Virus record (IMG/VR): IMGVR_UViG_3300032132_000045
Coordinates: 1-22,418 of that record
Length of the DNA: 22,418 nucleotides
Source: a virus
Direction: 5' to 3' (one strand)
In this document: piece after piece, positions 1 through 3,743 of the stretch
Numbering within the stretch: position 1 is the first letter of the stretch
Layout of the letters: every line of letters starts with the position of its first letter
Made by a program: the position numbers and the translations under genes
The notes under the pieces: generated by a model
Told to the model about the DNA's origin: nothing
Databases searched by the model: none
Seen by the model: only the letters and a program-made list of their open reading frames with translations

Positions 1-215
1 AACCACCAAGGTGATTCATACCCGGCACAGCCCAATAGACTGAGGTTTGTACCACGATAAACCTTGTTAGTCGATGCTGACCGAGGTGCATTGAACTTGC
101 CACCCTTCCAAGGCTTCTGCCAAGGGACTATTCCATCTTTCAGAAAGCCCAGAATCCTGTCATTGATTCTCTTGCATATTTGATTGTATTTTGCTTTATT
201 CACTTCTAACTCCAT
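1..215 (-). CDS. ArdC-like antirestriction protein, N-terminal part (cut by window edge)
   Basis: I read a leftward frame from an ATG at 215-213 that stays open to the window edge (71 codons). The peptide carries IVPWQKPWKGG, then APRSAS, then VYRGTN and GYESPWW. This ordered set matches the N-terminal single-stranded-DNA-binding domain of the ArdC family (formerly DUF1738). ArdC proteins coat ssDNA and shield incoming DNA from type I and II restriction; the family usually has a C-terminal zincin-like metallopeptidase domain, which would lie outside this window. The chosen start places the PW motif near residue 34, as is usual. The frame stays open upstream, so an ATG at 281 is possible but gives a less typical N-terminus. 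No strong ribosome binding site is visible. The gene diverges from the structural operon, so it is probably an early gene. Domain identity is by recognition. Confidence 0.85.
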   Translation of the reverse strand, partial: MELEVNKAKYNQICKRINDRILGFLKDGIVPWQKPWKGGKFNAPRSASTNKVYRGTNLSLLGCAGYESPWW

Positions 216-604
216 GTTTGATTGATATCGGCTAATTCCGACACCACAATATACAAAGATTACAACTGTTTCCAATAACATATTTACATATAATGATATA
301 TAAATAGGCTTCACGACAAGGAATTTAACAATATTTGCAGGGTTTGTACCAATTGCCAGAACATTTACTTATATATAGAGAAGAGATTCCAATCCGTATC
401 AGCGACCAAGGGGGAGAGGGGAGGATAAGTGTATATCCCTATGCATCGCCCACCATCTAAGGATGCACAGCGAATACAGGGTCATGGGGGGTCATTTGTA
501 TAACAATTTAGGTAATATGTTATGGTGTTTCTCGTCGAGAGAAGGTTGGATACCCTATTATATGGTCACTCTCAGTCATCATGGCATGGATTCAGGATGG
601 CTCA

Positions 605-665
605 CAGTCGGTGACACCTGTGCATAAATAAATAAATGTCTCGTCGGTGACCACCCAGTCGGTGG
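605..665. repeat. GGTG/CACC dyad cluster, possible operators
   Basis: GTCGGTGA occurs at 607-614 and again at 643-650, 36 bases apart, and GTCGGTGG follows at 658-665. Each lies in a dyad: GGTG-A-CACC at 610-618 nested inside CACAG...CTGTG (603-622 region), GGTG-AC-CACC at 646-655, and CCACC-CAGTC-GGTGG at 651-665. Repeated dyads upstream of a promoter are the usual form of repressor or activator sites. Binding is not shown; the winged-helix protein at 1146-1367 is one candidate ligand. Confidence 0.45.
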
Positions 666-725
666 GGTCGGGGGTCTCGTCATCTATATAGTCCCCATTG
701 TTATATTTCAGGTAAAATAAACAGG

Positions 726-755
726 TTGACAAAGATTACAGATAATGTGTAAGAT
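726..755 (+). promoter_or_regulatory. Sigma70-type promoter candidate for the rightward operon
   Basis: A perfect TTGACA at 726-731 is followed after 18 bases by TAAGAT at 750-755 (4 of 6 consensus). A second reading is TAAACA at 718-723, 17 bases, then GATAAT at 741-746 (5 of 6). Either would start transcription within about ten bases of the ATG at 761, so the first gene would have almost no leader. Confidence 0.5.
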
Positions 756-760
756 AGAGC

Positions 761-1145: not shown

Positions 1146-1367
1146 ATGGTAAAATTATTAAAGACGAGTGAGTTATGTGAATTTCTTGGTGTATCCCGTC
1201 AGTGTATATATAAGTGGCGTAATCAGGAGAATCCGATACCGACAGCTATTAATAATACGAATGGTGGCGGTAAGTTAATCAGGTATAAATTAGAAGATGT
1301 AATGGTATGGTTAAACAGTAATGGAAAAGAAGAGAGAGCCAAAGTTTTACGCCAAGAAGAGGACTAA
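1146..1367 (+). CDS. Excisionase/MerR-type winged-helix DNA-binding protein (73 aa)
   Basis: The N-terminus reads LLKTSELCEFLGVSRQCIYKW, a helix-turn-helix of the HTH_17/excisionase class, followed by a GGGKLIRYKLEDVMVWL wing and helix (about residues 41-57). Family members bind specific DNA sites as recombination directionality factors, regulators or small-terminase N-terminal domains; the lambda small terminase Nu1 uses this same fold with a comparable GGGK wing. Start ATG at 1146 follows AGAAGG at a good distance. No other small terminase is visible before terL at 2184, so packaging-site recognition is an attractive but unproved role. At 73 residues it lacks the oligomerisation region of a normal small terminase. 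Confidence 0.85.
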   Translation: MVKLLKTSELCEFLGVSRQCIYKWRNQENPIPTAINNTNGGGKLIRYKLEDVMVWLNSNGKEERAKVLRQEED

Positions 1368-1491
1368 GTCTGGTCGTTATATTACGATAGCGGAAGCAGC
1401 TACCAGACAGGAGTTGATTGAGCGTATTAAGTCAGATAGTAACACATACAGAGAAAGAGAGAGGTACAAAGATGGCAAAGAGATACTTTGA
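1321..1491 (+). CDS. Small basic hypothetical protein (56 aa), overlapping both neighbours
   Basis: ATG at 1321 opens a 56-codon frame that overlaps the end of the winged-helix gene by 47 bases and the start of the next gene by 20. The protein is lysine/arginine-rich (MEKKREPKFYAKKRTKSGRY) with a predicted helix ITIAEAATRQELIERI in the middle. Its last codons (RERYKDGK) contain the AGAGAGG ribosome binding site for the gene at 1472. It fills what would otherwise be a 104-base gap in a tightly packed operon, which supports it. The long overlap and the lack of a clear ribosome binding site count against it. No family recognised. Confidence 0.5.
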   Translation: MEKKREPKFYAKKRTKSGRYITIAEAATRQELIERIKSDSNTYRERERYKDGKEIL

Positions 1492-2194
1492 CACAGATAT
1501 ATGGAAGAAGAAGTGGTTTCGTAGTTTATCCCCGAAGTATAAGAGTTCATGGTGGTATTTGATTAGTCAGTGTGACCATGCTGGATTTTTTGACCCAGAT
1601 ATAGACATAATGAGTATATTTGTAGGTGAAGAATTGGATGAGACGGAGTTAATGGAAACATTTTCAAGCAGGATTGAATATTTGGATAATGGTAAATGGT
1701 TTATACCGAAGTTTATACAATTTCAGTATAAAGTGTCGCATCCTGATGAATTGAATTTAAGTAATAGAGTGCATAAGTCCGTCTATGAACGCATAGAAAA
1801 GTATAGTTATTTGTTTAGACCCATCGATGACCCTACCAAGGGTCATGTAAGGGTCATGCAAGGGGCATCCAAAAAAATGGAAGGGTCTAAAGACAAAGAT
1901 AAAGATAAAGTCTTTAATACTAAGATTAAACAAATAAAAAGAAAGGTGTTTAAAATTCCAACTGAAAATGAAGTAGTTAAATATTGCAAGGAAAGAAGTA
2001 ATTCGGTTAATGCTAAAAAGTTTATAGCTTTTTATGAATCTAAGGGTTGGATGGTAGGCAAGAACAAGATGAAGGATTGGGAAGCTGCTGTTCGTTCTTG
2101 GGAGCAGGCAGAGCAGAACAACAATAGTTCCATAAAGGGTTCGAGCAGGGCATTCGTACAGGAATCGGATAAGCAGAGGGAACGTGATTTCTAA
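1472..2194 (+). CDS. Phage replication initiator / replisome-organiser-like protein (240 aa)
   Basis: The N-terminal half (about 1-115) begins YFDTDIWKKKWFRSLSP and contains YLISQCDHAGFF, the style of winged-helix replisome organisers in phages and prophages. A hydrophilic KDKDKDK linker follows at 140-146. The C-terminal module (163-215) has IPTENEVVKYCKER and KGWMVGKNKMKDWEAAVRSW, a signature I recognise from phage replication proteins that act as origin binders or helicase-loader partners. I place the start at the ATG at 1472 (MAKRYF), seven bases after AGAGAGG. A longer frame from 1418 would add 18 residues with no ribosome binding site. It ends 11 bases inside terL. A replication gene directly joined to the packaging genes is unusual but occurs in compact phages. 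Confidence 0.75.
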   Translation: MAKRYFDTDIWKKKWFRSLSPKYKSSWWYLISQCDHAGFFDPDIDIMSIFVGEELDETELMETFSSRIEYLDNGKWFIPKFIQFQYKVSHPDELNLSNRVHKSVYERIEKYSYLFRPIDDPTKGHVRVMQGASKKMEGSKDKDKDKVFNTKIKQIKRKVFKIPTENEVVKYCKERSNSVNAKKFIAFYESKGWMVGKNKMKDWEAAVRSWEQAEQNNNSSIKGSSRAFVQESDKQRERDF

Positions 2195-3743
2195 ATACAA
2201 ATTCAGACCACACAGGGGTAAGCAGACGGAGTTTTTAAAATCTACTTCGAACTGGATATTCTACGGTGGAGCGAGGGGTGGTGGTAAATCACTGATGCTG
2301 GCATGGAAGGCAGCGTTAGTGCCGAGGGCATACCATTATGAGCGTTTAAGGCGCAGGATAGAGCCAGAACAGGTAGAAGTTTTAAAAGCCGAAGGTAAAT
2401 CTGTTAAAACGGTTGTAGATGCTGTATCGATTGATTTTGCTGATTACATTGGAATTTTGATGAGGAGGACATTTCCCCAGTTGGAAAGGAACTTGAAGCC
2501 GGAATGTGATAAGTTGTATAAGCTGTACGGGGCAAACTGGCAGGAAAGGAACAAGTGCTATGTGTTTCCCAGTGGGGCAAAGATTTATCTGGTTCATTGC
2601 CAAGACCGAAGGGCGTTGGATAACTACATTGGCGGTAACTATAATTTCATTGGGGTTGATGAAGCGAATCAATTTCCAGAAGACTGGATAGAAGAGCTGT
2701 CAACGTCGGCTCGTACCGACAATCAGCTACTGCAGCCGCAGATATGCTTAACATCCAATCCCGGCAATATTGGTCATATATGGTTAAAACGCAAGTTTAT
2801 TGACCGCTGCCCACCTGTTGTTGCTGGAAAACCGAGATATAACGAACAGTTCGATGTTTATTATCAAAATCAAAAAACGGGTAAACCGTTTATCGACGAA
2901 GAAGGGATTAGTTATCACTTTATACCAGCGACAGTATTTGATAATCCGACTCTTCTGGATAATGACCCGAATTACGTCAGAAAATTGAAAAACCTGAATC
3001 CTGTATTGAGAGCCATGTGGCTGGAAGGACGGTGGGATGTTTTCGCTGGAACTTATTTCGATAACTGGAATCCCATGCATCATGTGATACCGAAAGCATA
3101 TTTTCAATATGGTGTTCATTTCAAGAAGAATACCCACACCCTATACAGATTTTACGATTATGGCACAAAGGCTCCATTTGTCTGCTTGTTTGCTGCAGTT
3201 GACCGTGACGACAATATGATAATATTTGACGAAATAACCGAGACTGGGCTATCCGCATCCAAGCAGGTAAAGAAGGTCAATGAATACACTTGGGAAACTT
3301 ATAAATTAAAACCAAATGATTTTGATGATGATATTGCTGACCCTGCATATTGGACGAAACATTCCGAAAAAGAAGGTATGTTATACTCACCAGCGGACTT
3401 TTATGGCGACGATGGAATCTTTTTATCTAAGGGCAATAATGACCGTAAATCTGGAGCTAAAATCGTCTATGAAGGGCTGGAAGCACCAGACGAAGGGGTT
3501 CCCCGTATTCGGTTTACAGAAAATTGTTTACAATGTATTGAAACATTTCCTAACTTACCATCGGCAGAAAATGACCCCGAAGACATTGATACCAAAGCGG
3601 ATGACCATCATTACGATGCTCTGCGCTATGGTGCATTAAAAGTTCTGCCAAGCCTTGCTATATATGAAAAAAGAAAAAAAGGGTGGCGTTATCGAATAGG
3701 AAAGTCTGATTCTGATGGCAGCACTAACTGGAAAACAGCATAA
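2184..3743 (+). CDS. terL: Terminase large subunit (ATPase and nuclease)
   Basis: The DNA-packaging motor that threads DNA into the prohead and cuts it. Walker A is GGARGGGKS at residues 28-36, Walker B is YNFIGVDEA at 153-161 (catalytic Glu160), and the coupling motif is CLTSNPG at 188-194. The RNase H-like nuclease domain shows YRFYDYG at 321-327 (Asp325), ADPAYW with Asp386, and DDHHYDALRYG at 473-483 (Asp478). At 519 aa it has normal length and an intact set of motifs. Start is a GTG at 2184 just after AGAGGG, overlapping the previous gene by 11 bases. About 50 charged residues sit between Walker A and LMRRTFPQLERN. The stop shares one base with the portal start. Confidence 0.97.
   Translation: MISKYKFRPHRGKQTEFLKSTSNWIFYGGARGGGKSLMLAWKAALVPRAYHYERLRRRIEPEQVEVLKAEGKSVKTVVDAVSIDFADYIGILMRRTFPQLERNLKPECDKLYKLYGANWQERNKCYVFPSGAKIYLVHCQDRRALDNYIGGNYNFIGVDEANQFPEDWIEELSTSARTDNQLLQPQICLTSNPGNIGHIWLKRKFIDRCPPVVAGKPRYNEQFDVYYQNQKTGKPFIDEEGISYHFIPATVFDNPTLLDNDPNYVRKLKNLNPVLRAMWLEGRWDVFAGTYFDNWNPMHHVIPKAYFQYGVHFKKNTHTLYRFYDYGTKAPFVCLFAAVDRDDNMIIFDEITETGLSASKQVKKVNEYTWETYKLKPNDFDDDIADPAYWTKHSEKEGMLYSPADFYGDDGIFLSKGNNDRKSGAKIVYEGLEAPDEGVPRIRFTENCLQCIETFPNLPSAENDPEDIDTKADDHHYDALRYGALKVLPSLAIYEKRKKGWRYRIGKSDSDGSTNWKTA

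Follow-up and report, generated by a model that had tools for sequence, protein, structure and literature searches.

The 22,418-base virus record IMGVR_UViG_3300032132_000045 (hereafter the window, meaning the whole stretch analyzed) belongs to an uncultured, marine, podovirus-like group, and its intergenic region (216-760), which has an ArdC-type gene running leftward on one side and a rightward operon on the other, carries three G/C-rich repeats of the GTCGGTG type. The question raised by this locus is what these repeats do between two divergent sets of genes; an earlier note had taken them for binding sites of a phage regulator, or for a packaging or replication initiation site. Comparison with related loci indicates that the repeats overlie an older conserved cis-element, named block B (Table 1), which is probably the packaging start, the switch of the genes on its right, or both.

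Rightward from this region, the window encodes small open reading frames (ORFs), a 73-aa HTH_17 protein (1146), a 56-aa ORF, an initiator-like protein (1472), the terminase large subunit (TerL, 2184) and a P22-type portal protein (3743; PF16510, E 2.6e-58). The identity of the window TerL to named-phage records was at most 31% among the best 25 of 1414 matches, the first of them being Pelagibacter phage HTVC115P (29.6%). TerL relatives with 61-99% identity were collected on 88 contigs by two viral scans and one genome scan, one of the three contributing the best 80 of 83 contigs. The relative G001 is 46,059 bases long and its two gene arms diverge at the same region; family matches were obtained for 7 of the 10 proteins scanned in its leftward arm (ArdC, peptide deformylase, DNA methyltransferase, RecE-like, RecT-like, RusA and DnaC-like loader). 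A change of sign in the GC skew between the divergent arms was observed in the four long records profiled. Another TerL relative (79%), the 6.6-kb contig L097, was binned as Candidatus Marinimicrobia UBA7303, and this one binned relative gives a weak hint of Candidatus Marinimicrobia as the host. In L002 (2039-2809), about 47 bases of the ArdC gene start are duplicated around an insertion of about 680 bases. No tRNA or tmRNA was found in the window; BLASTN of positions 1-2500 against named phages matched only a stretch of the initiator gene, and positions 480-760 had no BLAST match at E up to 1 among 50,697 phage records.

Table 1. Features in and around the divergent region of the window.
Feature	Positions	Strand	Basis
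ArdC-type anti-restriction gene, N-terminus; first gene of the leftward arm, truncated by the window edge	3..215	-	PF08401 E 8e-12; phrog_7245
Candidate leftward promoter, TTGGAA-N16-TATATT	248..275	-	9/12 consensus match alone; weak
Two GGGTCAT repeats, same heptamer as the initiator-gene iterons	479..495	+	five such left of B in L027
Dyad A, TATAACA-N12-TGTTATG (NNAACA-N12-TGTTNN)	499..524	.	only such dyad found in the window
TTCTCGTCGAGAGAA, partly conserved beside dyad A	529..543	.	alignment
GTCGGTGA, copy 1; lineage-specific	607..614	+	motif count, locus comparison
GTCGGTGA, copy 2; lineage-specific	643..650	+	motif count, locus comparison
Block B, a composite element kept among relatives, with the rightward promoter at its end	645..756	+	nhmmer profile, window (a seed) E 4.8e-26
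C-box, CCACCC-(N)-GGG	651..666	+	73-78 bases before TTGACA in 22 loci
GTCGGTGG, copy 3; within the conserved CCACCC...GGG box	658..665	+	motif count, locus comparison
Second box, TTGTTATATTTCAGG	698..712	+	one copy per record in 11/11 scanned records
Sigma-70-like promoter of the rightward operon, TTGACA-N18-TAAGAT	726..755	+	TTGACA in 29/35 loci
73-aa winged-helix protein (HTH_17; Nu1-/excisionase-like), candidate ligand	1146..1367	+	family, profile and fold matches
Conserved 56-aa ORF without a known family; overlaps the HTH gene, but in a different frame	1321..1491	+	match in 27/35 loci
Initiator-like protein (ATG at 1472; 240 aa)	1472..2194	+	annotated as a replication initiation protein in 2/17 matching records
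Probable replication origin: 11-bp iterons within the initiator gene and, after them, A-rich AAAGACAAAGATAAAG	1827..1868	+	iteron scan
Terminase large subunit (TerL)	2184..3743	+	family matches

The motifs described in the earlier note were found where it had placed them, as were the TCTCGTC copies at 530, 639 and 675, and their position between the leftward antirestriction gene (PF08401) and the rightward operon was correct. With both strands counted, the 22,418 bases contain three copies of GTCGGTG, all within 607-664, versus 0.77 copies expected, and at least three copies were reached in 2 of 100 shuffles; the count of TCTCGTC was unremarkable (at least three in 16 of 100 shuffles). When a cluster was defined as a 7-mer with at least four G/C present in three copies within 60 bases of one strand, two such 7-mers were detected in the window, GTCGGTG (607-658) and AAGGGTC (1838-1881, inside the initiator gene), compared with 0 of 200 first-order Markov simulations. 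The clustering of GTCGGTG is not expected by chance. The dyads are short (GGTG-A-CACC, GGTG-AC-CACC and CCACC-CAGTC-GGTGG), and the 36-base spacing is common to GTCGGTGAC (607/643) and TCTCGTC (639/675); a 36-bp unit was perhaps duplicated, giving the spacing of the repeats.

By the refuting criterion of the earlier note, conservation in relatives, the GTCGGTG repeats fail. GTCGGTG, counted from 60 bases before to 40 bases after the start of block B, was absent from 29 of the 35 distinct B-bearing loci, all of which, the window itself apart, were reached through TerL; three copies were present in the window, L015 and L107, and two in L099, L008 and L027. In L006 the copy at 607 is gone and its neighbours are retained. 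Because of these absences and this loss, the repeats and their 36-base spacing appear to be recent, and they look like a lineage-specific addition to an older site. The cluster probably has no function of its own; it would be a chance product or a duplication remnant that a few near relatives carry in the spacer, which is compatible with any reading of block B. The third copy, however, is part of the conserved C-box and to that extent not neutral. The earlier note was nevertheless right about the place: a CCACCC box belonging to a conserved, promoter-linked element contains copy 3 together with the CACC half of copy 2.

Block B consists, in this order, of the CCACCC...GGG box (C-box), a TATATA tract, a second box, TTGACA and a -10-like hexamer. 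The 88 relative contigs and the window were searched with a profile of 24 seed sequences, and at E<0.01 it matched 46 contigs including the window (66 locus ids, 20 contigs having two each) that represent 37 distinct sequences; all of the matched copies were on the TerL strand, upstream of TerL. Leaving out L132 and L116, which are cut by the contig end, gave the set of 35 loci. The profile reached loci with a TerL 64-65% identical and, more weakly, 61%; its matches outside the seeds included L125 (1e-16), L124 (1e-14), L140 (9e-9), L146 (2e-8), L139 (3e-5) and L141 (1e-4). The weakest matches, L147 and L148 (E 0.006-0.009), are both without the HTH gene and may be false. Between the weak hit and TerL of L148, a 222-aa ORF with no family match (860-1525) and a reading frame that reads as integrase-like (1356-2072) were observed. 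Block B was found on 45 of the 88 relative contigs. Ten of the 88 start within TerL and were excluded from the listing; the other 33 without B have less than 1200 bases before TerL (16 contigs), 1200-3000 (15) or more than 3000 (L053 and L142), and, because the distance from B to TerL varies widely, they are not clear absences.

Within block B, the distance from the C-box to TTGACA was determined in 22 loci (20 located by CACCC and two by CCCCCC) that had been chosen for C-rich DNA upstream of TTGACA, and the interval from the start of CCACCC to GGG was exactly 12 bases in 20 of 35 loci. The second box is TTGTTATATTTYAGG in the clade of the window and near CTTACACnAnACGG in others, among them most of the distant relatives; when viral contigs were searched with second-box patterns, all of the matches fell on contigs already reached via TerL. 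Both boxes were counted in 35 of 35 loci, with loose patterns applied at profile-anchored places, so these counts are not independent tests. A hairpin at the C-box was considered and rejected, as its stability was no higher than composition predicts (mean z -0.68, n = 35 loci), and the C-box was accordingly read as a sequence box. The promoter of block B has the TTGACA and TAnnnT hexamers of sigma-70 promoters at a fitting spacing (N18, where 16-18 is typical), and the pattern TTGACA-N16-19-TAnnWT fitted it in 7 of 11 records and fitted six other places across all 11. The C-box and the second box persist in the 6 of 35 loci where TTGACA was not found, such as L141 and L146; the latter carries TTGTAA-N17-TAAATT, a degenerate promoter that seems to have been kept.

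To the left of block B, at a distance that varies among the relatives, lies dyad A. Free-gap scans placed it at N12 in 11 of 22 and 6 of 12 loci (16 distinct in total). With the gap and AAC/GTT fixed, the scan covered 430 bases in loci with at least 150 bases upstream, and 28 of 34 loci, related ones among them not being independent, had at least five of the six arm pairs (three of which are set by the pattern, so that 5/6 stands for two of three free pairs); three more loci had four pairs, and none was found in L037 (where the dyad is further off), L027 and L148. In the shuffle control, 0-14 of 300 were as good. A stricter scan, limited as for the second box to the first 20,000 bases of G010 and G011, detected the dyad in 9 of 11 records; the exceptions were G002 and G008, and a single hit at another place arose in G002 and in G011. 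The outer arm bases change between clades, mostly staying complementary (AT/AT, GC/GC, AC/GT and GT/AC), and mismatches were found in L133, L134, L013, L031 and L140. Block A is partly inverted in L007, L009, L010, L012 and L028; such inversion, together with the variable distance, would suit the site of a dimeric protein. In L146 (122-171), dyad A sits in the middle of an extended perfect inverted repeat whose arms are 20 bases long. In L037 (351-630), four GGGGCTTA repeats spaced 21 bases apart lie to its left, and an 11-bp tandem array (GTAAGGACATA, TATGGTAATAG) lies between it and block B.

The winged-helix (wHTH) protein, which the earlier note had named as the obvious ligand, remains the best candidate: its gene follows B on the right in 35 of 37 distinct loci, with ORF lengths of 57-98 aa among family members. 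Its family likeness points both to terminase small subunits (TerS) and to excisionases. When the wHTH profile was compared with the PDB, the best matches were DNA-binding domains of TerS, namely 7lw0 (6e-4), 1j9i (lambda, 1.1e-3) and 6hn7 (2.5e-3), followed by RppC (2.7e-3). The structure of the window protein was predicted with a mean pLDDT of 81.2, the wHTH alone being confidently modelled and residues 63-73 falling below 50. The closest folds to this model were 6hn7_B (Z 8.4), 7lw0 (Z 8.3, rmsd 1.6 over 56), 7lwr (7.9) and 7lxs (7.0); excisionases ranked below TerS (Z 6.3 and 6.1), and with Z 5.3 the structure of lambda gpNu1 itself was outranked by excisionases and by MerR proteins. Z values below 8 can reflect a common fold arrangement, and the margin of TerS over excisionases is small in the model. 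Foldseek with the same model returned nothing at E<=0.001, with RacA and the RdfS excisionase among the top-ranked entries. The excisionase/regulator family phrog_66 matched 22 of 22 members and the TerS family phrog_57 matched 18 of 22, the window protein scoring better with the former, and Phage_Nu1 matched just 5 of 22. Only sub-threshold NCBIfam hits (MADS1, excisionase and others) were obtained for the protein, and phmmer with the single sequence gave one weak, unrelated hit.

The genes between this region and TerL were also compared. TTGACA lies 1153 bases before TerL in L055-L057, and the rightward ORFs of at least 40 aa in that interval encode the wHTH protein, the 56-aa product and the initiator; L056 has, in addition, an overlapping frame of 45 aa. 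The distant locus L146 has the order dyad A, block B, a 138-aa wHTH ORF and TerL; by analogy, this ORF is in the classical place of TerS, and its product had no TerS family match.

The reading that we favor over a plain promoter-operator, if only tentatively, is that block B is a terminase-recognition (cos/pac-like) site fused with the operon promoter. The wHTH protein encoded downstream would bind B, and perhaps also A, and the bound protein would bring in TerL, so that packaging would start at B; as a sigma-70-type promoter is built into B, the same binding would also tune the operon. The GTCGGTG repeats would have been added to this site in one lineage, perhaps by the 36-bp duplication. We infer the binding, the bringing in of TerL and the packaging start from features that were observed directly, i.e., conservation, fixed spacing, gene order, and likeness in sequence and fold to terminase small subunits. 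A packaging-type site is favored because the conservation is deep and the second box single, because a cos-like layout adjoins a terminase-small-subunit-like neighbor, and because the boxes persist in loci with no TTGACA found, such as L141 and L146.

In lambda-like phages, TerS is described as binding R sites at a critical distance from the symmetric cosN, just upstream of the TerS gene (PMC9026076). The window element resembles lambda cos (cosN-cosB) with gpNu1, and the cos of N15 and PICI with a single R3, in lying upstream of a winged-helix gene and TerL and in having a partly symmetric G/C-rich box with a recognition-like box about 47 bases away, center to center; as in lambda-type cos, the spacing of the two boxes is fixed, with the symmetry of the C-box being partial and the spacing loci preselected as C-rich. 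The downstream protein has, in the predicted model, a terminase-small-subunit-like DNA-binding fold; TerS came out best by profile and fold, and excisionase families did as well or better in the family searches. By contrast with lambda cos, the window element has a built-in promoter and the extra, movable dyad A. Moreover, an initiator gene stands between the wHTH gene and TerL, and the window protein, at 73 aa, lacks the TerL-binding C-terminal domain of lambda TerS, for which the same source gives 181 aa including oligomerisation and TerL-binding parts (PMC9026076). With the headful pac sites of P22 and SPP1 the window shares a P22-type portal and a site near the terminase genes; P22 pac, according to PMC9611059, lies within the TerS gene, whereas the window element is intergenic and promoter-linked.

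The metagenome contigs gave no sign of cut, cohesive ends at B. Each of the 11 contigs with the A-side motif also carries TerL, and only two contigs (L132 and L116) start inside B, too few for a clear excess. The end repeat of G001 (110 bp) lies about 5 kb from B, which points to a circular or permuted assembly. Packaging is also disfavored by a protein that is too short to be a whole TerS and that matches excisionases/regulators as well as it matches TerS. For these reasons (no sign of cut ends, the short protein and the equal excisionase match), the element was not classed as cos or pac.

Nearly as likely as the packaging site is a pure promoter-operator, and both may hold. Here the wHTH protein would be an excisionase/MerR-like regulator that binds the second box and dyad A and acts as a switch for the rightward operon, perhaps in opposition to its leftward counterpart. 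This possibility is consistent with the frequency of TTGACA among the loci, the -10-like hexamer and the rigid distance to the upstream boxes, with the concentration of the promoter pattern at B, with the match of phrog_66 to every wHTH member and with the seemingly retained promoter of L146. The element also stands between divergent arms, where the GC skew flips, and it shares with phage divergent control regions a sigma-70 promoter, dyad operator-like sites and a wHTH gene in the operon. It differs from such a region in that the upstream boxes outlast a recognizable TTGACA in some relatives and in that the second box is a single copy in 11 of 11 records, whereas regulators often have several targets; the conservation is also, in our judgment, deeper than is usual for operators.

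In a combined switch, which we regard as unlikely, a domain-only Nu1-like protein would read the composite site, and this one binding event would both set the terminase operon promoter and mark the packaging start, while dyad A would act as a second site that moves and co-evolves; the part for binding TerL that this protein lacks would perhaps be supplied by the overlapping 56-aa ORF.

Replication initiation at the repeats, as the earlier note had also suggested, is less likely in the window, because iterons of the initiator type are located within the initiator gene; of the note's proposals, packaging or regulation is favored. The gene was labelled an initiator on the strength of the 2 of 17 annotated records; its profile had no PDB match better than E 0.058, and its structure was poorly predicted (mean pLDDT 66.7). 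No lambda-type array was found at 605-665, the nearest iterons being the two copies at 479-495 and the array being that at 1827-1868. Arrays inside an ORF that starts like the initiator were also found in L015, L054-L057, L133, L137 and L139, the sequence varying and the 11-bp spacing being kept (AGGGTC x7 in L015, AGGGGC x5 in L133, AGGGTA x4 in L137 and GACCCT x3 in L054). Their coordinates were 1827-1910 in the window, 3323-3405 in L015, 3686-3735 in L133 and 1803-1841 in L137. The lambda origin likewise has iterons and an A-rich tract within the initiator gene O (PMC7466680); the window array differs in its 11-bp iterons of changing sequence and in its distance from the repeats. The origin is thus probably within the initiator gene, with some initiator sites near dyad A. 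It is quite improbable that the region is an origin, or a second one, with the initiator binding GGGTCAT beside dyad A and block B serving for unwinding or as the start. That reading would account for the GGGTCAT copies at 479 and 489, identical to the iterons of the initiator gene, for the five intergenic and five genic copies of L027, for the array of L141 (600-700), which with A-rich AAAGATAAAG lies close to B on its right, outside rightward ORFs of at least 60 aa, and for the skew switch near the region. Against it are the in-gene position of the main array and A-rich tract, the lag-11 scan, which gave no array near B in most loci, and the fact that GC skew also tracks gene direction.

A conserved non-coding RNA or structured leader transcribed across the region would fit the short inverted repeats and the long conservation, but it is very improbable given that Rfam gave 0 matches at the gathering threshold over the whole window, that the C-box folds no better than its composition, that the arms of dyad A are short and A/T-rich around a loop of 12 bases and that the partial inversion of block A fits a protein site better.

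In a literature search that was not aimed at the exact element, no described packaging site, promoter or origin was found for this phage group. The analysis sets the conserved element apart from the eye-catching, lineage-specific repeats that led to it, and provides a precise, testable cis-element and a candidate ligand for an uncultured marine phage group with TerL relatives on 88 contigs. If the packaging reading is true, this group would have a minimal Nu1-like domain linked to a promoter-embedded packaging signal.
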